Assembly: GCA_023473795.1 (NCBI GenBank)
Contig: JAMCYS010000138.1
Coordinates: 27,725-60,920 of the forward strand
From: Chloroflexota bacterium
GTDB taxonomy: Bacteria > Chloroflexota > UBA6077 > FW602-bin22 > JAMCYS01
Direction: 5' to 3'
Length of the DNA stretch: 33,196 bases
Under the pieces are notes generated by a model. The model did not search any database and was not told the origin of the DNA. It worked only from the letters and a program-made list of their open reading frames with translations. Below, one piece after another: positions 9,143 through 31,579 of the stretch; position 1 is the first letter of the stretch, and each line of letters starts with the position of its first letter. The position numbers and the translations under genes are program-made.

Positions 9143-9666
9143 CGCCGAGGGCACGGCGAACGAGGAAAACAAGGGGTCGACGGCTGATTTCGCCCCCAAC
9201 ATATTCCCTCGGCCCGAAATAGGCCGCTCTACAGTCGCCGGGGCCCCCTGGCCGCCCCCGTTGGAGCCAGTGCGGCCCACAACTTGCGGATTCGGAGAGC
9301 GCCAATTCTGAGGGCGACGGCTAAACTTAGGCAGAGTATCGGACAGCGTTGCCAATCGCGCGGGGACCCGTCTGGCGCTCCCCGCGCGCGGGCTCGGCGA
9401 CTTCGTGTAGAGCGAGGGGCCCGCGGAGTTCAAAGTAGACGGCGGCCGGGGAAACACCGGCGGCCCGCTCCTGACTTTGGGTAACTTAGCTAAATTAACA
9501 CTGAATATCGCTAGATTGCCCCTCAAGTGGCACGCAATCTGCCGAAGGGAGAGAGCGTACAGACCCATACTCGGAATGGGCTAGCCGAGGCGCACCGGCC
9601 GTGAGGCACGGCAGAGAGCCCCTCATCCCACGTGACAGACTCACTCCTGAAAGGAGCCTACGTAAT
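9143..9666 (+). other. long leader region before the polysaccharide locus
   Basis: About 520 bases lack a plausible gene. They hold a GC-rich hairpin (9357-9366 with 9379-9388, 10-bp stem CGCGCGGGGA), a conspicuous AT-rich block (9477-9516) in otherwise GC-rich DNA, and a small hairpin GCCGTG-AGG-CACGGC (9598-9612). The promoter of the downstream operon probably lies in or near the AT-rich block, but no clear -35/-10 pair can be assigned. I do not recognise a riboswitch class. Confidence 0.4.
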
Positions 9667-10671
9667 ATGGCGCGGATTATCTTGGACACGGCCATGGGAA
9701 CGGACCGCAAGCCCGCTAGTTGGCGTGCGATCCGCCAGGAAGCCGCACACAGTGATGACGCAGGTCCCGCGGCGCTGCCAGCGGCCGCCGAAGTCTCGCC
9801 CCTCGCTACCGCGGGGCTAGGCTCACTCAAGCAGTTCCCCGTGGGCACCCGCAACGTGCCGTCGCCGGTCCTGTTTGCCGACCCCTACATGCCCCGGGTA
9901 AGCGTGGTCATACCGGCGCTCAATGAAGAGAAGAACCTGCCGGCCGTGTTGTGGGCCATCCCGTCGTGGGTCCACGAGGTGCTTCTGGTCGACGGCCGCT
10001 CGATCGACAGGACGGTCGAGGTAGCCCGCCGCATGCGGCCCGATATCCGCGTTATTGCCCAACCTGGTAAGGGCAAGGGTGACGCCCTGCGCGCCGGCTT
10101 CGCGGCGGCCAAGGGCGACATTATCGTGATGTTGGACGCCGACGGCTCGACCAGGCCCGAGGAGATGCCGGCCTTCGTGGGCGCGCTGCTGGCCGGCGCC
10201 GATTACGCGAAGGGCTCGCGCTTCATGCAGGGCGGGGGCACGGCCGACATGACCCTCTTTCGCCGGGTCGGCCACGGCATGCTCGTTCGTCTAGTGAAGA
10301 TCGCCTTCGGCGGCAATTTCTCCGACCTATGCTACGGCTACAACGCCTTCTGGGCGCACGTGCTGCCGCGCCTGGGTCTCGACGCCGACGGTTTCGAAAT
10401 CGAGACCATGATGAACGTCCGCGCCCTGCGAGCTCGGCTCAAGGTAGTGGAAGTCCACAGCTACGAGGAGAGAAGGACGTTCGGCGAGGGGCGGCTACGG
10501 GCGATTCCCGACGGGCTGCGGGTGCTGCGAACGATCGTCAAAGAGCGGCTTGGCCTTGGCTCCCCTGTCAGGGTATTGGGGCCGGTCGGGCCCAAGTCGC
10601 CGGGGCGCGCTCGGCCGCGCTGGTTGGACGACGTAGGCAATCTGGCGTCCCGCCAGGCCTCAGGTGAGTGA
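9667..10671 (+). CDS. GT2 glycosyltransferase (dolichol-phosphate-mannose-synthase-like)
   Basis: This 334-residue protein probably transfers a sugar from a nucleotide donor, perhaps to a lipid phosphate, on the inner face of the membrane. The GT-A fold begins at residue 76 with VSVVIPALNEEKNL, continues through LLVDGRSIDRT (106-116) and KGKGDALRAGF, and has the metal-binding DAD at 157-159 (MLDADGSTRPEEMP). This pattern is that of the DPM1/DPG-synthase branch of GT2. Residues 1-74 form an unassigned N-terminal extension. ATG 9667 has AAGGAG ten bases upstream; a GTG at 9601 lies inside a hairpin and is less likely. It is the first gene of the glycan locus; the next begins three bases after its stop. 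Confidence 0.88.
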   Translation: MARIILDTAMGTDRKPASWRAIRQEAAHSDDAGPAALPAAAEVSPLATAGLGSLKQFPVGTRNVPSPVLFADPYMPRVSVVIPALNEEKNLPAVLWAIPSWVHEVLLVDGRSIDRTVEVARRMRPDIRVIAQPGKGKGDALRAGFAAAKGDIIVMLDADGSTRPEEMPAFVGALLAGADYAKGSRFMQGGGTADMTLFRRVGHGMLVRLVKIAFGGNFSDLCYGYNAFWAHVLPRLGLDADGFEIETMMNVRALRARLKVVEVHSYEERRTFGEGRLRAIPDGLRVLRTIVKERLGLGSPVRVLGPVGPKSPGRARPRWLDDVGNLASRQASGE

Positions 10672-10674
10672 GCG

Positions 10675-11703
10675 ATGCCCTACCTATCGGTTGTCATTCG
10701 CACCTATACCGAGGCACGCTGGGACTACCTGGTGGCCGCAGTCCGCTCGGTTGAGCGGCAGACCCGGCCGCCTGACGAGATCGTGATCGTGGCCGACCAC
10801 AACCCGGCCCTCGCCGCGCGGGTTCGTGACGCATTGTCCCCGCGAGCTATAGAGCCGACGGGCGCGGGGACGCGGCCCGAGGTGGTGGCGGTTGAGAACT
10901 TGGAAGCCGTAGGCTTGAGCGGTGCCGGGAACAGCGGCGTGCGGGCGGCGAGAGGCGAGATTCTGGTCTTCATCGACGACGACGCCACGGCGGCGCCCGA
11001 TTGGCTGGAGCAACTGGAACGAGGGTACCGGGACCCCAGGGTAATGGGCGTGGGGGGAGCCATCCTACCGGTCTGGGAATCTGGCCGTCCGGGCTGGTTC
11101 CCCGATGAATTCGCCTGGGTGGTTGGCTGTTCCTACCGGGGGTTGCCGGAGGTGGAGGCCAGCGTGCGCAACCTGATCGGCTGCAACATGTCCTTCCGCC
11201 GAGCGGCCTTTCAGGCGGCGGGGGGGTTCAGGGGCGCGGAGTCGGGCATCGGCCGCGTCGGCGCCTTGCCCATGGGCTGCGAGGAGACCGAGTTCGCCAT
11301 TCGTCTCCGGCAGCAAAGTCCCGACGGCATTCTTCTTCACCGCCCGCGGGCCCAGGTCTTCCACCAGGTTCCCGCCAAACGCACGAGCTGGCGGTACTTC
11401 CTCTCCCGCTGCTACTTCGAGGGACGCTCGAAGGCCCGCGTGGCGCAGCTGGTGGGCAGCCGGGACGGCTTGCAGTCGGAGCGTGCCCACGCGTTGCGCA
11501 CGCTGCCCCGGGGGGTCGCGGCTGGGGTCCGCGACTTTGCTGTGGGGCGTGACGCCGGCGGCCTGGCCAAGGCGGCGGCAATAGTGGTGGGCCTGGCTTG
11601 GACCACCGCGGGCTACCTGGTTGAAACCTTTGCCAACAGGCGGGCCCCGCGGCCGCCGGCCGTGATCAGGCCAAGTCGAGTCACGGGGGACCAACTGCGA
11701 TGA
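10675..11703 (+). CDS. GT2 family glycosyltransferase
   Basis: This 342-residue protein is a nucleotide-sugar-dependent glycosyltransferase with a GT-A fold. Residues 3-12 (YLSVVIRTYT) form the first strand, NSGVRAARGEILVFIDDD carries the metal-binding DDD at 101-103, and a late acidic motif GCEETEFAIRL fits the catalytic-base region. A long C-terminal part with RYFLSRCYFEGRS and a moderately hydrophobic stretch near 298-320 may contact the membrane. It begins three bases after the previous stop, and its own stop overlaps the next start (ATGA), so translation is probably coupled. The sugar and linkage cannot be told from the sequence. Confidence 0.9.
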   Translation: MPYLSVVIRTYTEARWDYLVAAVRSVERQTRPPDEIVIVADHNPALAARVRDALSPRAIEPTGAGTRPEVVAVENLEAVGLSGAGNSGVRAARGEILVFIDDDATAAPDWLEQLERGYRDPRVMGVGGAILPVWESGRPGWFPDEFAWVVGCSYRGLPEVEASVRNLIGCNMSFRRAAFQAAGGFRGAESGIGRVGALPMGCEETEFAIRLRQQSPDGILLHRPRAQVFHQVPAKRTSWRYFLSRCYFEGRSKARVAQLVGSRDGLQSERAHALRTLPRGVAAGVRDFAVGRDAGGLAKAAAIVVGLAWTTAGYLVETFANRRAPRPPAVIRPSRVTGDQLR

Positions 11704-13064
11704 GCGATTTCCTGCCGGTGCTGCAACTGGAGGTGGAGCTGAGCCAGGCCCTGCCCGACCTGCCGGCGGCCCGCGGCGGCAGTGGGGACACTTACCGCCG
11801 GGCGTCGGTGCTGGTGAGGCTGCACGGCCAACCTCTGGGCACGGTCGAGCTAGGGCTGGGCGACAGTGAAGTGACCGCGGCCGAGTACGCGGGGTCAATC
11901 TGGCAAGCGCTCGCAGGGGCGATTAACGATCACCTGCTGGCCGACGGGCTGGAGCCGGCAGCCAGTCTCGGCGCAGCGGGACTGCCGGCGACCGGCCAGC
12001 CCGGGTGCCAGCGCGAGCGGGCGCAGCTGCTGGAGGACGCTCCCTTCCTGAGCATCGTCATCTCCACGCGCGACCGCCAGCAGGTGCTGGGGCGCTGCCT
12101 GCGATCAGTTCTAGCCCTCGATTACCCTCGCTATGAGGTGGTTGTCGTCGACAACGCGCCGCTAAGTGAGGCGACCGCCGAGCTGGTGAAGGGCGACTTC
12201 GGCCACTTCGCCCAAATCCGCTACGTGCGCGAGGAGGCCCCTGGGCTTTCTCGAGCCCGCAATCGGGGGGTGCGCGAGGCCAAAGGTGAGATCGTCGCCT
12301 TTACGGACGACGACGTAGTGGTCGACCGGCACTGGTTGAGCGGCCTGGCTCGCGGCTTCCGCCGGGCCAGCCGAGTCGGCTGCGTGACGGGTCTCGTGCT
12401 GCCGCTTGAGCTGGAAACCCAGGCGCAGGAGTGGTTCGAAGAGTTCGGCGGCTTTGGCAAGGGCTACCAGAGCCGGGTCTACGACTTGGGTGAGAATCGG
12501 CCGGCCAGCCCGCTCTTCCCCTACGCCGCCGGTCAATTCGGGTCCGGCAACAACATGGCCTTCCGGATGGCCGCTTTGCGCGAGATCGGCGATTTCGACG
12601 CCGCCTTGGGGACGGGCAGCCCCACCCGTGGCGGCGAGGATTTGGCGTCCTTTGTCGCGACCATTCGGGCAGGCTATTCGCTGGTCTATGAGTCCTCGGC
12701 GATCGTTCGCCACCATCACAGACGGGACTACGAGGGGTTGCGGAGGCAGATCCGCGACAGTGGCGTGGGGCTGACCGCGTTCCTCACCAAGTGCCTGCTA
12801 GACAGCCCTGGCTCGCTACCGGAGTTCGCTGTGAAGGTGCCATCCGGCCTCCACTATGTCCTGGCGTCGAGTTCCGACAAGAACAGCAAGAAGCACGCGA
12901 GCTACCCCGCGGAGCTGGAAACAATCGAGCGGCTAGGCATGCTGGTCGGTCCGTTGGCCTACTTGCGGGCCCGCTGGCAGGATCGCCGGAGGGGCTGGGC
13001 TGCCCGGTCTCGGCCGGGGCGCCTGGTCACCCGTGAGAGCGGCCGGCAGTCCGGCGTCAGCTGA
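11700..13064 (+). CDS. GT2 glycosyltransferase with novel N-terminal domain (copy 1)
   Basis: This 454-residue protein has two parts. Residues 1-95 form a domain I do not recognise, with the pattern P-V-L-x-LEVELS, a variable loop, then R-x-x-VLVRLHGQPLG. The GT-A catalytic domain starts near residue 116 (FLSIVISTRDR), with VVVDNAP, TDDDV (DDD 203-205) and the late motif GGED (E313, D314). It is a tandem paralogue of the next gene, which has the same architecture. The ATG overlaps the preceding stop as ATGA. It probably adds one sugar of the repeating unit; the N-terminal domain may dock it to the membrane complex, but that is only a guess. Confidence 0.88.
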   Translation: MSDFLPVLQLEVELSQALPDLPAARGGSGDTYRRASVLVRLHGQPLGTVELGLGDSEVTAAEYAGSIWQALAGAINDHLLADGLEPAASLGAAGLPATGQPGCQRERAQLLEDAPFLSIVISTRDRQQVLGRCLRSVLALDYPRYEVVVVDNAPLSEATAELVKGDFGHFAQIRYVREEAPGLSRARNRGVREAKGEIVAFTDDDVVVDRHWLSGLARGFRRASRVGCVTGLVLPLELETQAQEWFEEFGGFGKGYQSRVYDLGENRPASPLFPYAAGQFGSGNNMAFRMAALREIGDFDAALGTGSPTRGGEDLASFVATIRAGYSLVYESSAIVRHHHRRDYEGLRRQIRDSGVGLTAFLTKCLLDSPGSLPEFAVKVPSGLHYVLASSSDKNSKKHASYPAELETIERLGMLVGPLAYLRARWQDRRRGWAARSRPGRLVTRESGRQSGVS

Positions 13065-13129
13065 TGATCGTTGAGGGCGCTGAACTGCGGTCGTTAGGCG
13101 ATCGCCAGCGTCGTGACTGGAGGGTGGAA

Positions 13130-14512
13130 ATGGTGAACGAATTGGTGTCGGTGGTCGCCGCCAACGACGGATTTAGACCGGTCCTGCTGCTAGAGGTCGA
13201 GCTCAGTCGCCCGCTGCCGGCGGTCTCGGCGGTGGATCCCACCACGGGAGAGGCGCATAAGCGGGTGTTCACGCTGGTCCGCCTGCACACCCACCCGCTC
13301 GGCGTGGCCTGGCTGGAAATTGGCGAACATGGCCTGGCGCCCGATGAGTTCGCTAGCCAGGTATGGGCGCATTTCCAGGGTCGGATCACGGAGCACCTGC
13401 GCCAGGACGATCTTCCTGAAGTGGGAGAGCTGGGGCCGGACGGGCTGCCAACGATGGCGGCGCCGCCCTGCACCCGGGATCGGCGACTCGTTCTAGAGGA
13501 CGCGCCTTTCGTCAGCGTCGTCATACCAACGCGGGACCGCCCCGAGCTAATTAGGACTTGTCTAGCCTCCTTGTCTGCCCTTGATTACCCGGACTACGAG
13601 GTGCTGGTCGTCGACAATGCTCCCAGCTCCGACGCAACCAAGGTGGCGGTGACCGAAATGACCACCATCTTCCCACGGGCGCGCTACCTGCGGGAAGACC
13701 GACCGGGAGCGTCCTGGGCCCGCAATCGGGGTCTGCGCGAGGCCAGGGGCGAGATCGTCGCCTTTACGGACGACGACGTCACGGTGGATCGCTACTGGTT
13801 GGCACAACTGGTCAAGGGTTTCGGGATGGCCGACGACGTTGGCTGTGTTACCGGCAACGTGCTACCCCGCGAGCTGGCTACGCCCGCCCAGGTCTGGCTC
13901 GAGGAACGCGGCGGCTTCAGACGGGGCTTCGAGCGGCGCATCTACGACATGGGCGAGAACCGATCCGGTCACCCGTTGTATCCGTTCTCGGCAATGATGT
14001 TTGGCTCCGGCAACAATATGGCCTTCCGCGCCTCGGTGCTGCGGGCGATCGAGGGGTTCGATCCGGCGCTGGACCCGGCAGGGCCCGCGCTAGGTGGCGA
14101 GGACCTGGCCGCGTTTTTCGAGGTGGTCGTGCGGGGCCACAGGCTGGTCTACGAGCCGGCGGCCTTCGTGAACCATCTCCATCGGCGCGACTACGAAGGG
14201 CTGCGCCGTCAGATGTACGGCTGGGGGGTCGGCTTTTCGGCCTTCCTCACCAGGAGCCTAATCAGACACCCCCAACTGATACCGAACTTCACCGTCAAGC
14301 TGCCCTACGGGTTGTTCGTTCTGCTTCGCGGCAGGATGCCATACAGCCAAAGCGTCGTCGACCACCTTGATGGACTGCTGCCCGTGGCCCAAACGCGCGC
14401 TCTGCGCCGAGTGGAGAGCGCGGGCTACTGGCATGGCACGCTGGCCTACATGCGCAGCCGCCAGAGGGTACGACGCCTCATCGGGCGCTATGGGGGTCTC
14501 TCCGTTGCCTAG
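13130..14512 (+). CDS. GT2 glycosyltransferase with novel N-terminal domain (copy 2)
   Basis: This 460-residue protein is the paralogue of the upstream gene. Residues 15-105 repeat the unrecognised domain (PVLLLEVELSRPLP, then FTLVRLHTHPLGVAWLE). The GT-A domain begins near 127 (FVSVVIPTRDRPELI), with TDDDV (DDD 214-216) and GGEDLAAF. Shared blocks such as GSGNNMAFR and RRDYEGLRRQ show that the two genes arose by duplication. ATG 13130 has GGAGG six bases upstream. An alternative ATG at 13064 overlaps the previous stop and would add 22 residues but lacks a Shine-Dalgarno site. The next gene starts inside its 3' end. Confidence 0.88.
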   Translation: MVNELVSVVAANDGFRPVLLLEVELSRPLPAVSAVDPTTGEAHKRVFTLVRLHTHPLGVAWLEIGEHGLAPDEFASQVWAHFQGRITEHLRQDDLPEVGELGPDGLPTMAAPPCTRDRRLVLEDAPFVSVVIPTRDRPELIRTCLASLSALDYPDYEVLVVDNAPSSDATKVAVTEMTTIFPRARYLREDRPGASWARNRGLREARGEIVAFTDDDVTVDRYWLAQLVKGFGMADDVGCVTGNVLPRELATPAQVWLEERGGFRRGFERRIYDMGENRSGHPLYPFSAMMFGSGNNMAFRASVLRAIEGFDPALDPAGPALGGEDLAAFFEVVVRGHRLVYEPAAFVNHLHRRDYEGLRRQMYGWGVGFSAFLTRSLIRHPQLIPNFTVKLPYGLFVLLRGRMPYSQSVVDHLDGLLPVAQTRALRRVESAGYWHGTLAYMRSRQRVRRLIGRYGGLSVA

Positions 14513-15512
14513 ACCCATGGCAGGCCCCGGGCCGAGCGGCAAGACAAGAGACAACAGCTCACCAGGCACGCTCGCGGTCGGCACCTACCAGGAGCGTGGC
14601 GGCAAAGTCAGCTCTGGGGCGCACCATCTCGTGGCGCGCGTCCTTCAAGACCTCGACCGCGCCGGTGTGCGCTGGCGAAGCCTGGGCGATCCGGTCGCGG
14701 AGGAAAGCGTAGAGAGCTGGGCTCTAGGGTTCGAGCGACTTGACGAACGCTTGATCCGACCGGCACTGCTCGCCCACGGCTTTCTGCGGCTACAGTCCGG
14801 GAGAGAAGACGGGGCAGCGGCATACGTCGCCTACCACCTACCCAGCGACCGCTGGCTGCGACTTTTCCTCCACGGTCGAGTGAGCGAAGAGTGGCCCAGC
14901 TGGCCCCCGCAAGGCACGGCCGGCGGCAGGTTTATGGCAGGCGGCAGCCAGCCGGGGCTAACCGTCGCCCTGCTGGGGCCCGACGGCAGCGGCAAGTCGA
15001 CGCTGGCCGCCCGCCTGCGCGAGTCGTACTACTTCCCCACACGCCTGCTCTACCTGGGTCTCTGGCAGCAGGCGGAGGATTTCGAGGTTCGCGATCGGCT
15101 GCCGGGTTGGAACCTAGGTAGTCGCCTGCTGCGTATCTGGCGGCAGTACCTGGTTGGGCAGTACTACCGGCGCCGTGGCTGGTTGGTGGTCTTCGACCGT
15201 TACACCTACGACGCCCTTCTGGCCGGCCAAGCCGCCGGCAACCGGCGCGACCGGCTTTACACCTGGTTGTTGAGCCGGGCCTGCCCTCCGCCGGACCTGA
15301 CGGTGGTGTTGGACGTACCGGGAGAGGTGATGTTCGCCCGCAAGGGCGAGGGCAGCCTGGCGCGACTGGAGGAGGAGCGGCAGCGCTTTCTCTCTCTGCG
15401 GGAGCGCCTGCCGGGACTGCAAATCGTGGACGCCAACCGCCCCCTGGAAACGGTGCGGGCGGATGTCATGGAGATAGTTTGGAGCCACTACCTTGGCCGT
15501 GATCGAGCATAG
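14490..15512 (+). CDS. thymidylate-kinase-like P-loop protein with extra N-terminal domain
   Basis: This 340-residue protein has a nucleotide-kinase fold in its second half. The Walker A motif is GPDGSGKST (163-171), DRYTYDALL (236-244) matches the DR(Y/H) motif of thymidylate kinases, and VVLDVPGEVMFARKGEG resembles the LID region. Residues 45-135 are unlike dTMP kinase; they are reminiscent of degenerate nucleotidyltransferase-like domains found with such kinases in polysaccharide loci, but I cannot confirm this. A housekeeping Tmk role is unlikely given the extra domain and the operon context; it may phosphorylate a sugar, lipid or nucleotide intermediate. ATG 14490 overlaps the previous gene by 23 bases; ATG 14517 is possible. 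Confidence 0.75.
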   Translation: MGVSPLPRPMAGPGPSGKTRDNSSPGTLAVGTYQERGGKVSSGAHHLVARVLQDLDRAGVRWRSLGDPVAEESVESWALGFERLDERLIRPALLAHGFLRLQSGREDGAAAYVAYHLPSDRWLRLFLHGRVSEEWPSWPPQGTAGGRFMAGGSQPGLTVALLGPDGSGKSTLAARLRESYYFPTRLLYLGLWQQAEDFEVRDRLPGWNLGSRLLRIWRQYLVGQYYRRRGWLVVFDRYTYDALLAGQAAGNRRDRLYTWLLSRACPPPDLTVVLDVPGEVMFARKGEGSLARLEEERQRFLSLRERLPGLQIVDANRPLETVRADVMEIVWSHYLGRDRA

Positions 15513-17088
15513 TCCCGGGCTCCCCCCTCAGCGGGGTCTGCCGGTTGCCCAGGAGCAGGATGGGGCGGCGCCGAGCGCCGCCACCGCCGAGCACCTGCGT
15601 GGCTCCAGTCTACTCCTGGCGGGTCGCTTTCTGGCCTACGGCCTGGAGTTCATCGCCCAAGTGCTCTTGGTGCGCTACCTCGCCAAGTCTGATTTCGGCG
15701 CCTTCAGTTACGCCCTCTCGGTGGTGGTCGTACTCAAGAGCATCGCGATTCTCGAGCTGCCCAATACCCTGGCCCGCTTCCTTCCGCTCTATCGCGAGCG
15801 CCGCGACTACGGCTCCCTCATGGGCAGCGTGGCTCTGGCCGTGGGCGCCATCGCGGGCGTGGCAGGGCTGCTGGTGGCGGGCACCTACTTGGCCGTCGGG
15901 CCGCTGGGGTTCAAGCCGACCGACGATCCCCAGGCATTGCTGCTGCTGTTGGCTCTCGGCCTGCTGGTGCCGCTGGAGGGCTTGGATGCCCTGGCGACGG
16001 CTTTGTTAGCCACGCTCGCCGGCGCCGCGCCGATCGCTTTTCGCCAGGTGCTGGCGTCCGCGCTGAAGCTCGGCGTCGTCTTGGCGCTGCTGTTCGCCGG
16101 GGCCGACGTCTACTTCCTGGCCACCGGCTACGTGGCCGTCTCGGCCCTCGGCCTGCTGGTCTATGCCTGGTCGCTGCTGCGGACGTTTCGCCGGCAGGCC
16201 TGGTTGCCGCGGTGGCGGCCCCGGCAGCTGTCGTTTCCCGTGCGCGAGATCTTCGGCTTCGCGCTACCGCTGTTGGCGTCCACGCTGGTCTGGGTGCTGA
16301 TGGAGTCTGCCGACGCCATCTTGCTGGGTTTCTTCCAGAACAGCGAGGCCGTGGCCAACTTCCGAGCCGTGCTCCCCCTGCCGCGCGTCCTGGCGACGCT
16401 CACGCTCACCTTTGGCGTGCTCTACACGCCGCTGGCCGCCCGCCTGTACGCACGGGGCGAGCACGAGGAGTTGGCCGACCTTTACCGCCGGGTGGCGCTG
16501 TGGATGACCGTTCTCTCCTTCCCTATCTTCGCGCTGACCTTTGCTTTCGCCCGGGCGACAACCATCGGGCTCTATGGGGCGCGCTACGCCGATGCGGCGC
16601 CGATCATGGCGCTGCTGGCCCTCGGCTACTACTGTTTCGCGCTCACCGGCTTCAACGGGCTGACGCTAAAGATCTACCGCCAACTGCGCTTCGCGGTCAG
16701 CGTGGACATCGCCGCCGCGGTCATCAACCTGGCCGTGAACCTGGTGCTGATCCCGCGCTGGGGAGCCGTGGGCGCGGCGGTCGGCACAGGTGGCACGATG
16801 GTGGTCCACAATCTCCTCAAGCAGTACGGCCTGTGGCGCTACCTGGGAATCAACCTCTTCCAGAGACGATACATCAGAGCCTATGCGGGGCTGCTGGCGG
16901 TTGCCCTGGCGCTCCTCGGCTTGCAGCTGGCGCTGCCGGCGAGCCTGTGGGTGGCGCTGCCCCTCAGCGCGGTGGCCAGCCTGCTGGTGCTGTGGCTGGC
17001 ACGAGCCTCGCTGGCGCTTGAAGCCGTGTTTCCCGAACTGCAGCGCTGGCCGTGGGCAGCGGCAATAGCCCGGACGTGGTTGAGATGA
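15493..17088 (+). CDS. Wzx/MOP-superfamily polysaccharide flippase (first)
   Basis: This 531-residue membrane protein has about 12-14 hydrophobic segments from residue 35 onward, preceded by a hydrophilic N-terminus. The first helix region HLRGSSLLLAGRFLAYGLEF followed by LVRYLAKSDFGAFSYALS is typical of the polysaccharide-synthesis (RfbX/Wzx) branch of MOP exporters, and AVINLAVNLVLIPRWGAVGAA is the standard second-half signature. It probably flips an undecaprenyl-linked oligosaccharide across the cytoplasmic membrane. The TTG start has GGAG eight bases upstream (15481-15484); GTG 15499 is an alternative. It overlaps both neighbours, so it is firmly part of the operon. Confidence 0.9.
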   Translation: MAVIEHSPGLPPQRGLPVAQEQDGAAPSAATAEHLRGSSLLLAGRFLAYGLEFIAQVLLVRYLAKSDFGAFSYALSVVVVLKSIAILELPNTLARFLPLYRERRDYGSLMGSVALAVGAIAGVAGLLVAGTYLAVGPLGFKPTDDPQALLLLLALGLLVPLEGLDALATALLATLAGAAPIAFRQVLASALKLGVVLALLFAGADVYFLATGYVAVSALGLLVYAWSLLRTFRRQAWLPRWRPRQLSFPVREIFGFALPLLASTLVWVLMESADAILLGFFQNSEAVANFRAVLPLPRVLATLTLTFGVLYTPLAARLYARGEHEELADLYRRVALWMTVLSFPIFALTFAFARATTIGLYGARYADAAPIMALLALGYYCFALTGFNGLTLKIYRQLRFAVSVDIAAAVINLAVNLVLIPRWGAVGAAVGTGGTMVVHNLLKQYGLWRYLGINLFQRRYIRAYAGLLAVALALLGLQLALPASLWVALPLSAVASLLVLWLARASLALEAVFPELQRWPWAAAIARTWLR

Positions 17089-18173
17089 TGGCAGAGAGCA
17101 GCTTGCTCAAGAACATCCGCCCGCCGAGGATACGCCCCTACATAGGGCGCCTGTGGTACGACTGGCTGGACGGGCGCCGCTTGGCGCGGGCCGTCGGCCT
17201 GGCGCCGCTGGTCCTCACCCGCGTCCCGCCGCTCCCCGGGGCGTCGCGCCTCGACGAATGGGTCGTGCAGGACGCGCGCTGGAGCAAGACCGGCGCGGCC
17301 GTGCTGCATCTAGGTCTAGGTCCACCCTCAGGGGAACCGCTGGGCATTCTGAAATTGGCATTCACCGACACGGCCCGCCAGGGGCTCCGTGCCCAGTCCA
17401 GCCTGCTGGCCCAGTTGCGGTCCGACTCGAGGCTGGGCGACTGGCACGCCTTGCTGCCGCGGCCCGTGGCCGAGGGCGAGGTTGCCGGACTGTACTACGT
17501 TCTGCAAGAGGCGTTGCCTGGTTTGCCGGCCGACGCCCGGCCAGGCGGGGCGGACGTCGATTCGTGGCGCCTGCTGGGGCTGGCGATAGAGGCCATTCGT
17601 CCCCTGCACCAGCGCACGGTCGAACGGACGATCCTCGGCGGGTCCTTCGTGGCCGAGGCAGTCGACCGGCCGCTGGCGTTGCTGCGGCTGGCCGCGCGCT
17701 CCAGTCTGCCCATCCGGCGGGAGGACTCCCTGGCTCGCCTGGCAAGAGAATTGCATGGCGTTCTGGCGGGTCGCGAGGGTGTGACAGGTTGGATTCACGG
17801 CGATCTGTGGCTGGGAAACGTACTTGTCGCCCCGGAGGGCTCCCGGGTGACCGGCATCGTGGACTGGAGTGCGGCCTCACCGCGCGAGCTCGCGCTGCAC
17901 GATGTCCTTCATCTCATCCTGCACAGGCGCCAAGTGGAGCAGAAGCGGGAGCTGGGGGCTGTCGTGCGGGCGGTTCTGGAAAGGGCCGAATGGGAACCCG
18001 GCGAGCGTGAGCTGCTGGCGCAGCCACTTCTGGCGGCTGGCATAGGGGAGAGAGCGGCGGTGCTGTTGTACTGGCTGCGCCGGCTCAGGTTCATAATCGA
18101 GCAGGGTACGGGACCGGCGCGGAACCCGCTGTGGGTGGCCTGGAATATCGACGAGGTGCTGCGATGCCTGTGA
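17085..18173 (+). CDS. aminoglycoside-phosphotransferase-fold kinase (APH family)
   Basis: This 362-residue protein is an ATP-dependent small-molecule kinase of the APH/choline-kinase type. A candidate ATP lysine is K90 (GILKLAF). The catalytic loop is WIHGDLWLGNVLV (H238, D240, N245) and the metal-binding aspartate is D260 in GIVDWSAAS. The first 75 residues are unassigned. Resistance is an unlikely role; inside a glycan operon it may phosphorylate a sugar or a polar head group such as choline. ATG 17085 overlaps the preceding stop (ATGA), and its own 3' end overlaps the next gene by ten bases, so the set is translated together. Confidence 0.85.
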   Translation: MMAESSLLKNIRPPRIRPYIGRLWYDWLDGRRLARAVGLAPLVLTRVPPLPGASRLDEWVVQDARWSKTGAAVLHLGLGPPSGEPLGILKLAFTDTARQGLRAQSSLLAQLRSDSRLGDWHALLPRPVAEGEVAGLYYVLQEALPGLPADARPGGADVDSWRLLGLAIEAIRPLHQRTVERTILGGSFVAEAVDRPLALLRLAARSSLPIRREDSLARLARELHGVLAGREGVTGWIHGDLWLGNVLVAPEGSRVTGIVDWSAASPRELALHDVLHLILHRRQVEQKRELGAVVRAVLERAEWEPGERELLAQPLLAAGIGERAAVLLYWLRRLRFIIEQGTGPARNPLWVAWNIDEVLRCL

Positions 18174-19366
18174 ATGAGATAGGACAGTCCAGCGCCGAAA
18201 GGGCGGTTCGGAGGGAAGATTACACGCTACACGGGCTGGTCACCATTCGCCTGGTCGATGCCCCGGCGGAGGCCCGGGCCGAGCTGGCGTGGCTCCTGGG
18301 CCCATCGCAGGGCCAGCCGGCAGCCGAACCGGACGTGACCATCCGCTACGTGCCGCGCCTGCCGCGGCGAGAGGGGTTGCAGTACGTCGGCCTGCACGAA
18401 GCGGCGTTCGACGAGGAAGAGTTTTACCTCGTGGGTCCGCAAGGGCAGCTGGCCACGTTCCCGTTCGCACGTCTGGGTGGGCCTAGCGAATTCCTCTGCG
18501 AGCCGGGCGTCAGTATCCTCTCTTACCTGCTGCCCGTGTTGGGTTTGCGCTTGCTGGCTAAGGGCTACGTGATGCTGCACGCCGCCTCTTTGGTGCACGA
18601 AGGTAAAGGCGTCCTAGTCACGGGCTGGCAGAAGGGCGGCAAGACGGAAACGCTGCTGGCCTTCATGCGTGCCGGGGCCCAATACCTTGGCGACGAGTGG
18701 ACAATTCTCTCCCCGGCCGAGGGGAAGATGTGGGGCATTGCCGGCACGCTGCAGATCTGGGACTGGCATTTGCGCCAGCAGCCGGACCTCTGGCGGCGGC
18801 TGAGGCCGGCGGAGCGCAATCGCTTGCGGCTGCTACGTGCCTACCAACACCTCTACGGACTCCTACCGTCTGCATGGCGGGGACGCGGTGCGGGGGGCGA
18901 GTGGCTGCGCCGCTTGAGCCTGGACGGCGGCAACGCCCTCTGGGGGCAGGCGCGGTCGGCGCCCGCCCGCCTGTTCGGCGAGAATCTCTGGCGCGGTCCG
19001 GCGCCGGTGGACGTGGTCTTCCTGGCCGGGATCGGGCCTAAGGTGCAGGTGGTGCCATTGGAGGCTGTGGAAGTCGCCCGCCGGATGATTGCCTCACTGG
19101 CCTTCGAGCGCAGGTCGCTGACGGCGCTCTATCAAGAATTTCGCTACGCCTTCCCGGAGAGGCACAACGATCTACTGGACACGGCGAGCGACCACGAAGA
19201 ACGGCTACTCCGGCAATCCCTGTGCGGCACGCTGGCCCACCAGGTGCTGCACCCCTATCCCGTATCCCTGTCGTTGCTCTACCAATCCTGCCTGCCGCTC
19301 GTCCGCCAGGTGGAAGCGGAACCTCAGGAACAGCCTATCCTGGAGACAGAGGAGCCCTTGCTATGA
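18164..19366 (+). CDS. HprK-like P-loop kinase
   Basis: This 400-residue protein has a central ATP-binding domain similar to HPr kinase. The segment VMLHAASLVHEGKGVLVTG precedes a Walker A motif WQKGGKTE (G154 to T161), followed by a GDEW motif (176-179) where HprK has its DD pair. The N-terminal 130 residues and the C-terminal 200 are unassigned. True HprK enzymes phosphorylate Ser46 of HPr, but HprK-like proteins in biosynthetic loci act on other substrates, for example peptide hydroxyls in some lasso-peptide clusters. The substrate here is unknown. Between the APH-like kinase and a secreted protein, it may modify a glycan intermediate or regulate the complex. The ATG has GAGG seven bases upstream and overlaps the previous gene. 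Confidence 0.75.
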   Translation: MPVNEIGQSSAERAVRREDYTLHGLVTIRLVDAPAEARAELAWLLGPSQGQPAAEPDVTIRYVPRLPRREGLQYVGLHEAAFDEEEFYLVGPQGQLATFPFARLGGPSEFLCEPGVSILSYLLPVLGLRLLAKGYVMLHAASLVHEGKGVLVTGWQKGGKTETLLAFMRAGAQYLGDEWTILSPAEGKMWGIAGTLQIWDWHLRQQPDLWRRLRPAERNRLRLLRAYQHLYGLLPSAWRGRGAGGEWLRRLSLDGGNALWGQARSAPARLFGENLWRGPAPVDVVFLAGIGPKVQVVPLEAVEVARRMIASLAFERRSLTALYQEFRYAFPERHNDLLDTASDHEERLLRQSLCGTLAHQVLHPYPVSLSLLYQSCLPLVRQVEAEPQEQPILETEEPLL

Positions 19367-21342
19367 GAACACCTCGCTCTTGGGCAATAGCCCTGCGCCG
19401 GCGCTGGACCAGCCTGTGGTTGACCGGTCTGGCCACGCTCCTAATCGTGAGCAGCCTGACCCTGCCCCAGACGCCGCTGGCAGGCGCCGCCGGCGACACC
19501 GGCTACCGCGATTTCTCCTTTGGCTTCACCCAGGCCCCTTTCGGCAATCCCGACAATGGTCCCACGGGAGAGAAGCCCCAGAGTAAGCTGTGGTTCAACG
19601 ATGGCTCCTGGTGGGACGTCTTGTATAACCCAACCGCGGGCGCGGGCGGGGAGTACCACATCTACCAGCTCGACAAAGCCACCCAGACCTGGAGCGACAG
19701 AGGGGTGGTGGTTGATACGCGCCGCTACTCGCACGCCGACGCCCTCTGGGACGGGTCGCACCTCTACATCGCCACGGCCCTGCAACCGGGGATGAGCGAC
19801 GCGGACAAGAGCGCCCGAGTGCTGCGCTTCAGCTACAACGCCAGCACGCAGTCGTATTCGCTCGACGCCGGCTTCCCCGTAGTGGTCGCCTCGGTGCCAA
19901 TGGAGGCGATCGTCATGGACAAGGACACCACCGGCATGCTGTGGGTGACGTACACTTATGGCAACGGCCAGGGCGGGAGGAGCGTCTACGTCTCGCACAC
20001 CGGCGGCAGCGACGCCACCTGGGTCACCCCCTTCGTCCTGCCGGCGACGGGGGCGACGACGCTCACGGCCGACGACCTCTCGGCCGTCGTGGCCTACAAC
20101 GGCAAGATCGGCGTCATGTGGAGCAACCAGACGGCCAGCACCATGTACTTCGCGTCCCACACGGACGGAGCCGCCGACAACGTCTGGCAGCAGAACCCGG
20201 CCCTGCAGGGGCCAAGCTACGCCGACGACCACATCAACTTGAAGTCGCTGCAGGCGGACGCCTCAGGGCAGGTCTTTGCGGCGGTCAAGACCTCCCTACA
20301 GGACGTGCCCAACCAGAACCCCAGCGCGCCGCAGATACTGCTGCTGGTCTTGAATCAGAAGGGCAGCTGGAGTCGCCGCACTTTTGGCACGGTGGGGGAC
20401 GATCACTCCCGCCCAATAGTGGTGATCGACAACTCGGCCCGCGAGCTGTACGTATTCGCCACTACCAACAACGGCAATCCGCCTTCCGGCATCTACTACA
20501 AGAAAACGAGCCTGGACAAGATCAACTTCCCTACCGGGCTGGGCACGCCATTCATGGAGAGCAGCAACGATACCAACATAAACAACGCTACCTCCAAGAA
20601 GGGCAGCGTCGACGGCACGACGGGGCTCGTGGTCCTGGCCTCGGACGTGACGACCGGCAACTACTGGCACAATACCCTGGGCATGCCCGCACCGGTCCCC
20701 ACGGCCACGCCCAGCGGTCCTACGGCCACGCCGACGCCCACGAACACGCCTTTGGCGACGCCCACGGCGACCGCGGTCTCCAGCGCTAACCTGGCTGTGG
20801 GGCGGCCGGCGACGGCATCTTCCCTGGAGTCGGCCAGTTATCCGGCGAGCAACGCGGTGGACGGCAACGGGGGCACGCGCTGGTCGAGCCAGTTCAGCGA
20901 CCCGCAATGGCTGGCGGTGGACCTGGGGCAGAGATATGCCATCGACCGGGTGAGGTTGAGTTGGGAGACGGCCTACGGCAGTGCCTACCAGATCCAGGTA
21001 TCGAGCGATAACGCCACCTGGACGACGATCTACTCCACGACTACCGGCACGGGCGGGGTGAACGACCTGACGGTGAGCGGCACGGGGCGCTACGTGCGGA
21101 TGTACGGCACTCAGCGAGGCACCCCCTGGGGCTACTCGCTCTGGGAGTTCCAGGTCTACGGCAGCGCGGCGACCACCCAAGCCGCCGCCCTCGTCGCCAC
21201 GTCGACGATAGTGCCCACTGCGACCAGCGCTCCTGCTGCCCCGACGGCGACCCCAACGGCGACCAGCGTTCCGGCGACTCCGACAGCGGTGCCCACGTCG
21301 GTGGTCAGTCCGACGCCGACGCCGAAGAAGGGCAAACCCTAG
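19363..21342 (+). CDS. secreted propeller-like protein with CBM32-like domain
   Basis: This 659-residue protein is exported: residues 1-43 are a signal peptide with arginines, a hydrophobic core and a likely AGA cleavage site. Residues 45-440 contain repeated blades (for example SHADALWDGSHLYIAT, VVAYNGKIGVMWSNQ, SRPIVVIDNSARELYVF), consistent with a BNR/sialidase-like beta-propeller, though no catalytic motif can be assigned. A Thr/Pro linker leads to an F5/8C-type carbohydrate-binding domain at about 476-602 (NLAVGRPATASSLESASY, RYVRMYGTQRGTPWGYSLWE). A 55-residue Thr/Pro-rich tail ends TPKKGKP. The CBM is about 70% identical by eye to that of the minus-strand GH16 protein at 26730-28343. 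It starts as ATGA over the previous stop and probably binds or trims the glycan. Confidence 0.82.
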   Translation: MRTPRSWAIALRRRWTSLWLTGLATLLIVSSLTLPQTPLAGAAGDTGYRDFSFGFTQAPFGNPDNGPTGEKPQSKLWFNDGSWWDVLYNPTAGAGGEYHIYQLDKATQTWSDRGVVVDTRRYSHADALWDGSHLYIATALQPGMSDADKSARVLRFSYNASTQSYSLDAGFPVVVASVPMEAIVMDKDTTGMLWVTYTYGNGQGGRSVYVSHTGGSDATWVTPFVLPATGATTLTADDLSAVVAYNGKIGVMWSNQTASTMYFASHTDGAADNVWQQNPALQGPSYADDHINLKSLQADASGQVFAAVKTSLQDVPNQNPSAPQILLLVLNQKGSWSRRTFGTVGDDHSRPIVVIDNSARELYVFATTNNGNPPSGIYYKKTSLDKINFPTGLGTPFMESSNDTNINNATSKKGSVDGTTGLVVLASDVTTGNYWHNTLGMPAPVPTATPSGPTATPTPTNTPLATPTATAVSSANLAVGRPATASSLESASYPASNAVDGNGGTRWSSQFSDPQWLAVDLGQRYAIDRVRLSWETAYGSAYQIQVSSDNATWTTIYSTTTGTGGVNDLTVSGTGRYVRMYGTQRGTPWGYSLWEFQVYGSAATTQAAALVATSTIVPTATSAPAAPTATPTATSVPATPTAVPTSVVSPTPTPKKGKP

Positions 21343-21455: not shown

Positions 21456-22832
21456 ATGGTGAGCGCCCCGGCCAGAAGAGCCATTCTTGGAGTCTTGAAG
21501 GTACGCCTGGCCTTGCCGGTGCCCCCGGGCAGGCAGTCGGTAGGCCCGACCGTGGACCGCATCGGGGGTCATCTGCGCACGCCCCTTTACCGCAACGCCT
21601 ACGCCTTGATTCTGAGCACGGGGTTGACGTCCGGCCTTGGCTTCGTCTACTGGCTCGCGGCGGCCAGGCTGTACCCTGCCGAAGTCGTGGGGCTCAATTC
21701 GGCGGCCCTGTCGGCGCTGATGTTTCTGGCGGGTCTGGCGCAGTTCAACCTGGCAAACGTCCTAGTTCGTTTCATTCCCCGGGCCGGCACGGCCGCGCTG
21801 AGCCTGAACAATCGAGCCACGCTTGTCACGGTGGTCGCTGGGTTGTTGGCCGGCCTTGTCTTCGTTCTGGGGATCGACATCTGGACGCCGAGCCTTGCTT
21901 TCCTGCTTGCCAGCCCGCTGCTCGTCGGCGGTTTCGCGATGGCCACGGCAGCCTGGGGCGTCTTCGTGTTGCAGGAGGGGGTTCTCACGGGTCTGCGGCG
22001 GGCCACCTGGGTGCCGGTCCGCAACGCGGTTTTCGCGTTGGGGAAGATAGCCCTGCTCTTCTTGTTCAGCTCCTTGCTCCCAGACTATGGTATGCTCGCC
22101 TCCTGGATCATCGCGGCGGTGCTGCTGCTCGGGCCAACAGGCTGGTTAGTGCGCCGGCAGTTGGCCGCGGGCCTGCCGGCGGCGCCGCGGGCGGACGACC
22201 TCCAGATGAACCAAGCCCAGATCTTGCGCTACGCCGCCGCCGATTACGCCGGTTCCCTGGCCTGGCTGGCGGCGACAATGCTGGTGCCGGTGCTGGTGTC
22301 AGAACTGGAAGGGCCGGCGGCGACGGCCCACTTCTATCTGGCCTGGACGATTGCCTATTCGCTGTATCTGGTGGCCCCGGGCATGGGCTCCTCGCTGATA
22401 GTCGAATCGGCTCTCGATCCCGAGAGTCTAGGTGCCTACAGCAGGAAGGCTCTGCTCCAGACGGCCCGCCTGGTCTTGCCCTTGGTCGTAGTTCTGGTGC
22501 TGGTCGCCCCCTACGTCTTGAGGCTACTGGGCGACAGCTATGCGGTAGAGGGCACTACCCTGGTGCGGCTGCTTGCCCTGTCGGCCATACCCAACGTGGT
22601 CAATGCCCTGGCCATCAGCGTCGCCCGCGCCCAACGCCAGATCGTTGCCATAGTCGGCATTCTTGTGGCCCAGTGCGTCTCGGTGCTCGTGCTTAGTTTC
22701 GTGCTGCTGCAATCGGTCGGCATCGTCGGCGTCGGTCTCGCCTGGCTGGTCAGCCAGAGCGCGGTCGCAGCCGTGCTGCTCGTCCTGCGGGGCCGTCTCC
22801 TGCAGCCGGCGGCCAGGCCAAGCGCACTCTGA
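21456..22832 (+). CDS. Wzx/MOP-superfamily polysaccharide flippase (second)
   Basis: This 458-residue polytopic membrane protein has about 12-14 hydrophobic segments. RNAYALILSTGLTSGLGFVYWLAAARLYPAEVVG is the usual entry motif of MOP flippases, and VGIVGVGLAWLVSQSAVAAVLL the usual last pair of helices. It is clearly different from the upstream flippase, so it is not a recent duplicate. It may handle a second lipid-linked glycan or a modified one. The start ATG has GGGGAG nine bases upstream. A gap of 113 bases separates it from the propeller gene; I see no terminator there, so the operon may continue. Confidence 0.88.
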   Translation: MVSAPARRAILGVLKVRLALPVPPGRQSVGPTVDRIGGHLRTPLYRNAYALILSTGLTSGLGFVYWLAAARLYPAEVVGLNSAALSALMFLAGLAQFNLANVLVRFIPRAGTAALSLNNRATLVTVVAGLLAGLVFVLGIDIWTPSLAFLLASPLLVGGFAMATAAWGVFVLQEGVLTGLRRATWVPVRNAVFALGKIALLFLFSSLLPDYGMLASWIIAAVLLLGPTGWLVRRQLAAGLPAAPRADDLQMNQAQILRYAAADYAGSLAWLAATMLVPVLVSELEGPAATAHFYLAWTIAYSLYLVAPGMGSSLIVESALDPESLGAYSRKALLQTARLVLPLVVVLVLVAPYVLRLLGDSYAVEGTTLVRLLALSAIPNVVNALAISVARAQRQIVAIVGILVAQCVSVLVLSFVLLQSVGIVGVGLAWLVSQSAVAAVLLVLRGRLLQPAARPSAL

Positions 22833-22981
22833 ACAGAGGCCCGGGGGGCCGGCCAATGGTTTGCCGGGCCCAGGAGGCGCAATCATCTACAGTCATTGCG
22901 AGGATCGACGATGAGAACTGCCAGAAAGTGGAGCCGGGCATCCTTGGCAACGCCCGCGGCAGCCGCGAGGAGGACCAACAG

Positions 22982-24862
22982 ATGAACACTCGCGACCTAC
23001 ACGCGGAGCGTACCTGGTGGCCTGCCGCCCGGGTCGCAGCGGTCGGGGCAATACTAGTCCCTGGCCTGGCCCTGACTCTGGCTGGCGCCGCCTGGGCTTC
23101 GGCGCTGCTGGGGCTCGACCTGCGACAGATCAACGACTACGGGCTCGTATCCGTGTTGCCGCCTGCCTACTTCGTGGCTCTGGCTCTAGTCACCCTCAGC
23201 TTCGGCTGGGCCCTGAACAACCGGCTGACGCCGAGCTGGCTTCTCTTGCTACACATCGTGTTTCTGATCCTGTTCGTTTACGGCACCCCTTCCTTGGCCT
23301 ACGACACGCTACGCTACTCCTGGGCCTGGAAGCACGTGGGCATTGTCGACTACATCCAGCGTTGGGGAATGGTCGATCCGAGCATAACCTCCCTGGCCGA
23401 TTTGAGCGCCTACCATAATTGGCCGGGGTTCTTTGCCCTGGGGGCGCTGCTCACGCAGGCGGGCGGCTTCGCCAGCGCCCTGCAGTTCGCCGGACTGGCG
23501 CCCCTGTTCTTCAACATCGTCGACATCGGGCCGCTCTGGTTGATAGCGAGTGCCTTAGTCCGCGACCGGCGCTTGCGCTGGCTCGCGCTGTGGTTCTTCT
23601 TCCTGGCGAACTGGATCGGCCAGGACTACTTCGCCCCCCAGGCCTTGGGTTACTTCTTCTTCCTGGCGGTGATCGGCGTTACCCTCGCCTGGTTCAGCAC
23701 CCGGCCCAGGGCCGCGGTGAAAGTCGGCGGCCGTTGGGATGTTCAGGCCCGGCTGGAAGCCTTCTGGTATCGCCTGCTCGGCCCTGAGCGATCGGATACG
23801 GCGCTGGCTGTCAAGGCTTCGCCCGGGCAGCGGCTGGGGCTCATGGCGCTGATCGTACTTCTGCTAGGGGTCGTCGCCAGCATCCACCAGCTGACGCCGT
23901 TCATGGTCATTCTGGCTCTCGGCGCCCTGGCGGTAGCCTACCGCATTAGCGCGCGCACGCTGCCGGTCTTGATGGCCGTAATCACGGCGACTTGGATGCT
24001 ATACATGGCCTGGGCCTTCGTGGGTGGCAACCTGACCTGGATCATCCACTCCTTCGGCCGCCTGGACCGCAACTCGACGGTGACGGACCTCGCGCACCTC
24101 AGCCAGGGGCAAGTGGTGGTCGCCCTGGCGGCGCGGGGGCTGACCCTGCTCATCGGCGTGCTGGGGATTGCCGGTGCCGTTCGCCGTTGGCGTTGGGGCC
24201 AGCGGGATGTCTCGTTCATGTTTCTGGCGGTAGCGCCCCTCCCCATGGTCTTTGCCAACTCGTACAGCGGTGAGATCACCTTCCGAATCTACTTCTTCGC
24301 CCTGCCCTTCGTGGCTGTCCTGGCCGCCGGCTTGTTGTACCCTTCGCCCGCCGCTAGCGGGTCCCGGCGCGTGACCCTGGCGTTGGTTGGACTGAGCGTT
24401 CTGCTGCTCGCCGGTCTGTTACTTGCCTACTATGGTAGAGAGCGGATGAACTACTTCACGCCGGAAGAGGTGACAGCCGCCCGCTACCTCTACAACACTG
24501 CCCCGCCCAAATCGCTCGTGGTCGGCATTGATTACGACTACCCTTCGGTCTTCACGAACTACGAGCAGTACACACACGTCACCCTGACGGGGCAGAGCAT
24601 AACGAAGAGCCAGCTCGAGCGGCTGCGGGACGATCCCGTGACCGCCGTCACCAGGGTGATGAGTGACCCAACGTACGCGGCCACCTACCTGATTATCACC
24701 CGCAGTCAAAAGGCTCATATAGAGATGGATAGCATACTACCAGCCGGAACCGTCGATCAGATCGAGCAGGCGCTCCTGCAGTCGGACGAGTACAAAGTCA
24801 TCTACCAGAACCAGGACGCCACGATCATGACCCTTGCCAGTCAGCGGGAGGTGGCTAGATGA
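22982..24862 (+). CDS. GT-C-like multi-pass membrane protein, possible polymerase
   Basis: This 626-residue membrane protein has a dozen or so hydrophobic segments, then an extracytoplasmic soluble C-terminus of roughly 130 residues (from YYGRERMNYFTPEEV). The first large loop contains YDTLRYSWAWKHVG and YHNWPGFF, which fits the layout of GT-C glycosyltransferases or Wzy-type polymerases. I see no specific family signature, so either role is possible. As the only such protein in the locus it is the best candidate for polymerase or ligase. ATG 22982 has AGGAGG eight bases upstream; the reading frame extends further upstream without a better start. It overlaps the next gene as ATGA. Confidence 0.65.
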   Translation: MNTRDLHAERTWWPAARVAAVGAILVPGLALTLAGAAWASALLGLDLRQINDYGLVSVLPPAYFVALALVTLSFGWALNNRLTPSWLLLLHIVFLILFVYGTPSLAYDTLRYSWAWKHVGIVDYIQRWGMVDPSITSLADLSAYHNWPGFFALGALLTQAGGFASALQFAGLAPLFFNIVDIGPLWLIASALVRDRRLRWLALWFFFLANWIGQDYFAPQALGYFFFLAVIGVTLAWFSTRPRAAVKVGGRWDVQARLEAFWYRLLGPERSDTALAVKASPGQRLGLMALIVLLLGVVASIHQLTPFMVILALGALAVAYRISARTLPVLMAVITATWMLYMAWAFVGGNLTWIIHSFGRLDRNSTVTDLAHLSQGQVVVALAARGLTLLIGVLGIAGAVRRWRWGQRDVSFMFLAVAPLPMVFANSYSGEITFRIYFFALPFVAVLAAGLLYPSPAASGSRRVTLALVGLSVLLLAGLLLAYYGRERMNYFTPEEVTAARYLYNTAPPKSLVVGIDYDYPSVFTNYEQYTHVTLTGQSITKSQLERLRDDPVTAVTRVMSDPTYAATYLIITRSQKAHIEMDSILPAGTVDQIEQALLQSDEYKVIYQNQDATIMTLASQREVAR

Positions 24863-28343: not shown

Positions 28344-28700
28344 CCCCACATCCCCCTCCAGTTTGCTGCCACCCCCGATCGAGCCCCCGTCACCGGCAGC
28401 CGGATCGATACGCCAACTTGCTCGCCGTTCGCGTTGGGCGAGTGCCTGGCAGACGACCCGCGCGCCCTCTTGTGCGGGCTTGCGCCTCCTTCGCCGTCGG
28501 GGTTGGCCAGTAATTACAGGCGGCGAAACAGACAAGCGAGATCGGCCTTCGCAGCCTGTCGCGCAACCTGCCGCCAGTATGACGGGTCAGACTACGACCG
28601 TATATAGGCAAATAGTCCTAGGCGTAGAACCCTAGTTACCTATTGCGGAGTTGAAGGGAGCACACGCGCCGCCGCTCGGCAGGGGAGCGGTAGAGGAAAA
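28344..28700. other. intergenic region upstream of GH16-CBM32
   Basis: About 360 bases lack a credible gene. TATATA at 28601-28606 in a short AT-rich patch could be part of a minus-strand promoter, which would leave a leader of about 250 bases. No clear -35 box is visible. Confidence 0.3.
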
Positions 28701-31495: not shown

Positions 31496-31579
31496 CATGT
31501 GGTTTAATAGGTGGATGATCGGCGTGACACGGGCCTGCCCCAGTCATGGGCAAGCCGAAGGCCGTCCGGGGAGGGGGAA

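Follow-up and report, generated by a model that had tools for sequence, protein, structure and literature searches.

The genes for a Tmk-like kinase, a Wzx-type flippase, an APH-fold kinase and a kinase of the PEPCK/HprK superfamily form an arrangement that exceeds chance, because it recurs across bacterial phyla. In the window, that is, the whole stretch of 33,196 nucleotides analysed here from a Chloroflexota bacterium, the four genes lie in this order at 14517–19366, all with open reading frames, within a tightly packed exopolysaccharide operon on the plus strand. The set is read here as a kinase cassette with a tailoring role in a Wzx-dependent exopolysaccharide pathway, which may phosphorylate the lipid-linked repeat unit or a residue about to join it; the probability of this reading is put at roughly 0.45.

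The operon begins with four GT2-type glycosyltransferase genes, joined to one another and to the cassette with junctions of −4 to +4 nt (Table 1). Within the cassette, the ATG of the APH gene overlaps the Wzx stop codon (ATGA, 17085–17088) and that of the HprK-like gene lies 10 nt inside the APH gene, while the gene for an F5/8C-domain protein follows by another ATGA overlap (19363–19366). The overlapping genes described in a previous sequence-only reading are thus present as stated. The three kinases, said there to “flank” the flippase, do lie around it in one operon, but not symmetrically. The first flippase has a relative in the same position in four other loci (L061, L068, L092 and L133), and in L061 a homologue of the F5/8C protein also follows the HprK-like gene.

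Table 1. Genes of the exopolysaccharide operon and its surroundings (positions in the window).
Feature	Position	Strand	Evidence
Four GT2-type glycosyltransferases	9601–10671, 10675–11703, 11700–13064, 13064–14512 (9601–14512)	+	Pfam Glycos_transf_2, E 1e-20 to 1e-25
Tmk-like kinase	14517–15512	+	Thymidylate_kin PF02223, E 9e-9, 35.7 bits (cut-off 27)
Wzx-type flippase	15499–17088 (start GTG 15499 or TTG 15493)	+	Polysacc_synt PF01943, E 5e-20
APH-fold kinase	17085–18173	+	PF01636, E 2e-14, 54.2 bits (cut-off 23.2)
PEPCK/HprK-superfamily kinase, uncurated family	18164–19366	+	No Pfam match; motifs and fold
Predicted secreted protein, C-terminal F5/8C (galactose-binding-like) domain	19363–21342	+	PF00754, E 9.5e-27
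Second Wzx-type flippase	21456–22832	+	PF01943, E 3e-10
Large membrane protein, candidate polymerase/ligase	22856–24862	+	No Pfam family; recurs in related polysaccharide loci

Recurrence was established from a phylum sample and a genome-contig scan, and the HprK-like family has members in 80 loci that were fetched from over 10 phyla. Six-frame profile searches of the neighbourhoods in this fetched-locus sample covered 52 loci of 12 kb or more, one of them the window, and detected Tmk in 45, Wzx in 34, APH in 21 and all three in 17. Co-occurrence beside Wzx, which had been set beforehand as a test, is therefore not confined to this genome, and by a second test set in the same way the catalytic residues of all three kinases are kept in their homologues. 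The order Tmk-Wzx-APH on one strand occurs in nine loci of Chloroflexota, Acidimicrobiia and KSB1/Calditrichota, and the full order ending in HprK in five, being kept in Chloroflexota and Acidimicrobiia. In a class-level search, few close relatives were found in the organism's own class. Neighbours in the recurrent loci are genes for an initiating sugar transferase, Wzc-like proteins, GT4, GT2 and a polysaccharide deacetylase. That promiscuous kinases simply pile up in variable polysaccharide islands as unlinked passengers is barely plausible: cassette content does vary, many loci lacking APH or Wzx within reach, and Tmk-like genes are also present in polysaccharide loci without HprK, but order, strand, coupling and fusions are conserved across phyla. 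The contrast with sister HprK-like subfamilies, none of whose 10 loci has Tmk or APH while 60 of 78 in the HprK family have Tmk (Fisher p 3e-6), had already weakened this explanation. A phage or defence origin was rejected, as no relative was found in viral contigs, PADLOC matched none of the four proteins at E 0.001 and PHROGs offered only generic thymidylate kinase, for the Tmk-like protein; so was a plasmid-borne module, for which plasmids gave a single weak match.

Several relatives are gene fusions. For example, L046 encodes Wzx-NTase-Tmk-APH in a single frame of 1347 codons and L044 Wzx-GT9-NTase-Tmk in one of 1319 codons, and the second flippase of the window is a homologue of the flippases in both. 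APH-Tmk (L121) and GtrA-HprK-like (L057) fusions also occur. These proteins, some of them from draft metagenome assemblies, join kinases to carrier flippases or a glycosyltransferase, and point to a link between the kinases and the flipped glycan. In the pathway proposed, a polyprenyl-phosphate carrier at the inner membrane face would bear the repeat unit while glycosyltransferases assemble it. Before Wzx flips this lipid-linked unit, the APH-, Tmk- and PEPCK/HprK-fold kinases would draw on ATP to add phosphate to it, or to build phosphate up there, or to do so on the next residue; the polymer would then be phosphorylated, being anionic or containing phosphodiesters. This supposes that all three kinases are active with a glycan intermediate as acceptor, the APH protein probably acting on a hydroxyl like WbdD, the HprK-like protein likewise on a hydroxyl like the lasso-peptide kinases, and the Tmk-like protein on a phosphate like nucleotide kinases.

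The Tmk-like protein has the P-loop GPDGSGKST (14976–15002), DRY (15192–15203) and the lid ARKGE (15336–15350), and with its fold and lid arginine it belongs to the thymidylate kinase superfamily. P-loop, DR and lid are conserved among relatives, whose predicted structure resembles dTMP kinases, but at 30.9 bits against 83 the window protein falls below the equivalog TIGR00041 for true dTMP kinases. In relatives, Tmk bears an N-terminal nucleotidyltransferase (NTase)-like domain with [DE]xD plus a third Asp, and a second Tmk is present. The window lacks this second Tmk and most of the NTase domain, which, like the variable make-up of the set, counts against the tailoring cassette. Proximity in polysaccharide loci also fits synthesis of a precursor: together with ATP-grasp/NTase partners in relatives, the kinases might turn free small molecules into an activated unusual building block, such as an alcohol or sugar that is phosphorylated or nucleotide-activated, for a transferase to attach to the glycan. 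This alternative is possible, if doubtful. Most kinases with an APH, Tmk or PEPCK fold act on small molecules, ATP-grasp genes are frequent neighbours in relatives' loci and FomB, a small-molecule kinase model, weakly matches 34 of 73 HprK-like members, all of which agree with it, as does the NTase-like domain. However, that flippases are fused with Tmk and APH points to a membrane-bound intermediate, and the largely deleted NTase domain of the window protein has no counterpart elsewhere in the genome at E 1e-10.

The APH-fold protein carries the Lys in ILKLA (17346–17360), HGDLWLGN (17796–17819) and IVDW (17856–17867); score and the K/HGDxxxxN/D catalytic set, which relatives keep, place it in PF01636. 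An antibiotic-resistance APH/Mph enzyme was rejected, the best NCBIfam score being 24 bits against equivalog/exception cut-offs of 500. LicA-type choline kinases share the APH/choline-kinase fold and feed the phosphodiester decoration of surface glycans; no LicC- or LicD-type partner is known in the window. In many APH relatives the kinase is preceded on its N-terminal side by a methyltransferase-like domain, which resembles methyltransferase structures in profile comparison (1xxl, E 8e-5) and looks degenerate, having no clear GxG SAM motif. This recalls WbdD of E. coli O9a, a methyltransferase with a protein-kinase-like-fold kinase that acts on polyprenol-linked glycan (PMC3482155). Unlike the cassette, WbdD is a chain terminator in an ABC-transporter pathway with no Tmk or HprK partner, and the window APH protein lacks the methyltransferase-like domain and is no WbdD-type methyltransferase-kinase. 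The shared domain order would agree with capping of the glycan end by phosphate or methyl phosphate to control chain length or termination. This is very improbable, since Wzx flips single units, whose polymerisation a non-reducing-end cap is expected to block, and Tmk and HprK would be left unexplained; the lack of a clear SAM motif in relatives and of the whole domain in the window protein argues in the same direction.

The HprK-like protein contains His150 in LHAAS (18575–18589), the Walker A motif GWQKGGKTE (18623–18649) and GDEW (18689–18700). His150 and the P-loop Lys171 are invariant among 73 members and Asp188/Glu189 are kept in at least 90%; the His, Lys and Asp are shared with PEPCK and HPr kinase/phosphorylase. 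P-loop, preceding His, following Asp and fold place it in the PEPCK/HprK superfamily, in a family that has no curated model: the window protein lies outside the curated HprK families (TIGR00679 and PF07475, the latter with weak matches in 24 of 73 relatives, at best with E 9e-6) and scores 23 and 22.4 bits with HprK-related kinase B (TIGR04355) and A (TIGR04352), cut-offs 200. Its AlphaFold model (pLDDT 90) aligns with PEPCK over nearly full length (Foldseek best E 6e-7), though with TM 0.42–0.48 over the query, and with HprK/P more weakly (E about 1e-3); identity to these enzymes is 10–14%. “PEPCK/HprK-superfamily” is thus a better name than the earlier “HprK-like”. Similarly, “unrelated” is true of the three kinases in fold alone: a P-loop is common to the Tmk-like and the HprK/PEPCK-like protein, and the fold of APH is protein-kinase-like.

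A PqqD-like partner is a feature of HprK-related kinase A systems. Neither such a partner nor a ribosomal peptide of the lasso kind was found here, and no small ORF family (30–125 aa) is common to more than three of 81 loci, so a lasso-peptide or HprK-related-A type system was rejected. The lasso-peptide kinases PadeK, ThcoK and PsmK are similar HPr-kinase homologues with a His-Lys-Asp-x set, which modify a secreted product without HPr; some clusters pair the kinase with a nucleotidyltransferase, PsmN, and a phosphoglycosylated lasso peptide results (PMC9266682, PMC8498205). They act on a ribosomal-peptide Ser, have Asp where the window family has Glu as fourth catalytic residue and are not known to have a partner of APH or Tmk type. 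Regulation through HPr in the classical manner is unlikely because the window genome (96% complete) has no HPr (PF00381), and regulation by an HPr kinase was rejected on this ground; HPr is also absent from 9 of 21 other HprK-family genomes searched and present in 7 of 14 controls. Regulation in a wider sense, by phosphorylation of HPr, Wzx, Wzc or another protein that gates synthesis or export, is improbable. It would suit the HprK fold and the Wzc-like proteins near relatives, and kinase-flippase fusions are also compatible with flippase phosphorylation, but protein kinases do not typically have an APH or Tmk fold and the neighbourhoods hold no conserved small partner.

Of the two roles suggested in the sequence-only reading, the transfer of phosphate to a glycan or lipid carrier appears best supported in this analysis, by the fusions and the WbdD-like architecture of relatives; export control gained no specific support. 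A more detailed scheme, which is rather unlikely, has the three kinases acting in sequence on the lipid-linked unit by hydroxyl phosphorylation and phosphate extension, the NTase-like domain of relatives transferring a nucleotidyl or sugar-phosphate group, and Wzx exporting a phosphodiester-modified unit; this would be a new type of surface-polysaccharide pathway in more than 10 phyla. No description of a Tmk/Wzx/APH/HprK module was found in open-licence full text, in line with the earlier suggestion of an undescribed system.

Genes misleadingly named thymidylate kinase, aminoglycoside phosphotransferase and serine kinase thus become one exopolysaccharide module. Carriers include the cultured actinobacteria Geodermatophilus, Blastococcus and Nocardioides, which make the cassette testable. 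If glycan phosphorylation is true, a PEPCK/HprK-fold family would gain a function, and many environmental bacteria would make phosphorylated polymers by a new route.

The Tmk-like (thymidylate-kinase fold), APH-fold and HprK-like (PEPCK/HprK-superfamily) kinases, which the sequence-only reading had proposed as a candidate undescribed system around a Wzx flippase, recur together in other loci. Among 80 loci collected by scanning genome contigs with the HprK-like alignment, plus the window, six-frame profile searches detected Tmk in 60, Wzx in 41, APH in 32 and all three in 19 (45, 34, 21 and 17 of the 52 loci of at least 12 kb, window included); the loci are mostly metagenome-assembled, the counts depend on how far contigs extend, and they relate to a sample sharing the scan pattern, without a random background of Wzx loci. 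As named in the database records, the loci returned by the scan come from Chloroflexota, Actinomycetota, Planctomycetota, Latescibacterota, KSB1, Calditrichota, Acidobacteriota, Bacteroidota, Ignavibacteria, Gemmatimonadota, Trueperaceae and Proteobacteria. The order Tmk>Wzx>APH on one strand is found in nine loci (L-numbers denote fetched loci of other bacteria): the window, L061, L068, L092 and L133, where HprK follows, and L100, L104, L106 and L115. Tmk directly follows HprK in 15 loci, and Tmk-like genes accompany APH and/or Wzx without HprK in L046, L047, L049, L055 and L059. Searched against 22 whole genomes, the Tmk-like profile mostly gives one or two matches per genome; judged by coordinates, the best match lies almost always within the HprK-like locus, although the profile includes some rows from such loci, where matches arise by construction. 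It is very improbable that the kinases are passengers. A second conserved block (APH-b, GT4, short Tmk, ATP-grasp (ATPgrasp_Ter), polysaccharide deacetylase) lies 3′ of HprK in L067, L068, L072, L078, L086, L097 and others, and is absent from the window.

As an internal control, loci of the same kinds that carry sister HprK-like subfamilies were used (L043, L048, L050, L051, L052, L053, L057, L134, L135, L140). With the same profiles, neither Tmk nor APH was found in these ten loci; Tmk is present in 60 of 78 HprK-family loci versus 0 of 10 (Fisher p 3e-6). Three of them carry tandem HprK-like pairs; L043 also has homologues of the window F5/8C protein, membrane protein and second flippase, and L134 and L135 have flippase and membrane-protein homologues.

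In 73 HprK-like sequences, H150 and K171 are invariant and D188, E189 and W190 at least 90% conserved; the Tmk P-loop, DR and lid Arg/Glu are kept in 13 of 13 aligned sequences; and the Lys, HGD, Asn and Asp of APH, which the window protein has too, are conserved in alignment A5 (K294, H432 and G433 invariant). Therefore, loss of catalytic residues in homologues, which had been named as counting against the proposal, is seen in none of the three kinases. Lasso-peptide kinases have a His-Lys-Asp-Asp set (PMC9266682); the HprK-like set shares His-Lys-Asp, but the last Asp is replaced by Glu.

The window Tmk-like protein exceeds the PF02223 cut-off, yet lies far under the dTMP kinase equivalog, and its APH is well over the PF01636 cut-off and far under every resistance model. 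The window HprK-like protein has no Pfam match and weak TIGR04355/TIGR04352 matches, and such proteins are covered by no curated family. Its AlphaFold model, built from an alignment of 73 relatives (mean pLDDT 90.2), falls in the PEPCK/HprK superfamily by Foldseek (PEPCK, E 6e-7, TM 0.44), HprK/P being a poorer match (E 1e-3). Regulation of proteins by the kinases is improbable, since HPr is missing from the window genome and nine others carrying the HprK-like family, and the loci examined show no conserved small partner peptide.

In the window, the gene run encodes four GT2 glycosyltransferases, Tmk-like, Wzx, APH-fold and PEPCK/HprK-fold proteins and a predicted secreted F5/8C protein, followed downstream by another Wzx flippase and then by a large membrane protein. 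Two ATGA stop-start overlaps surround the APH and HprK-like genes. From these junctions and neighbours, the four cassette genes probably sit within a single transcript for exopolysaccharide assembly. Two GH16 glycoside hydrolases facing the operon may cut its own polymer.

Features of the window and of compared loci
Locus	Position	Strand	Feature
Window	9601-21342	+	Tightly packed run; junctions -4 to +4 nt or short overlaps
Window	22856-24862	+	668-aa membrane protein, no Pfam family; kept in L043, L044, L048 polysaccharide loci; candidate polymerase or ligase
Window	25489-26496; 26730-28535	-	GH16 pair; one with F5/8C domain
Window	31511-32809	+	Two [4Fe-4S] ferredoxin-like stretches in one protein; no relation to operon
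L133	5532-6836		NTase-Tmk gene in two frames (apparent frameshift), at conserved place before Wzx
L043	9072-11602		Tandem HprK-like pair (GWSESGKTE...SDKW); polysaccharide locus without Tmk/APH
L134	9665-11500		As L043
L135	9974-11805		As L043
L057	8789-10645	-	GtrA/DPMS transmembrane domain (PF04138, E 2e-16) + HprK-like, one ORF
L046			Flippase + NTase-Tmk + APH, one open frame, 1347 codons
L044			Flippase + GT9 + NTase-Tmk, one open frame, 1319 codons
L121			APH + Tmk, one frame, both over Pfam cut-off

In relatives, the Tmk-like protein adjoining Wzx has an N-terminal nucleotidyltransferase-like (NTase) domain with [DE]xD and a later Asp, weakly matching PF14907 under the cut-off; most of it is gone from the window protein. 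The kinase part of an NTase-Tmk model from a relative (pLDDT 87) matches dTMP kinases. Where relatives have an APH between Wzx and HprK, it often has an N-terminal domain that resembles methyltransferase structures by profile (1xxl, E 8e-5) but shows no clear glycine motif for SAM; the window APH lacks this domain, as do its closest relatives (L061, L046). WbdD combines a methyltransferase with a kinase of protein-kinase-like fold and phosphorylates a glycan carried on polyprenol (PMC3482155); WbdD-like termination is, for the cassette, decidedly improbable. For pseudomycoidin, an HPr-kinase homologue together with a nucleotidyltransferase attaches a sugar through phosphate to a product that is secreted (PMC9266682). 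Both are analogies to the cassette, not membership.

Fusions are mostly from draft assemblies, where a missed stop or frameshift is possible in any single case, and the HprK-like part of the L057 fusion belongs to another subfamily. Kinase-flippase and kinase-glycosyltransferase fusions are the best pointer to the acceptor, hinting at a lipid-linked intermediate. We tentatively favor, at a probability of about 0.45, that the kinases would put phosphate on the lipid-linked repeat unit, or on the residue being added, with flipping to follow. The main rival, precursor synthesis by the kinases, is possible but rather unlikely.

A description joining the cassette elements was not found in open-licence literature, a negative that carries little weight. 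Both the folds of the parts and the type of locus are already known; what appears to be new is how the folds are combined and that this combination is conserved.
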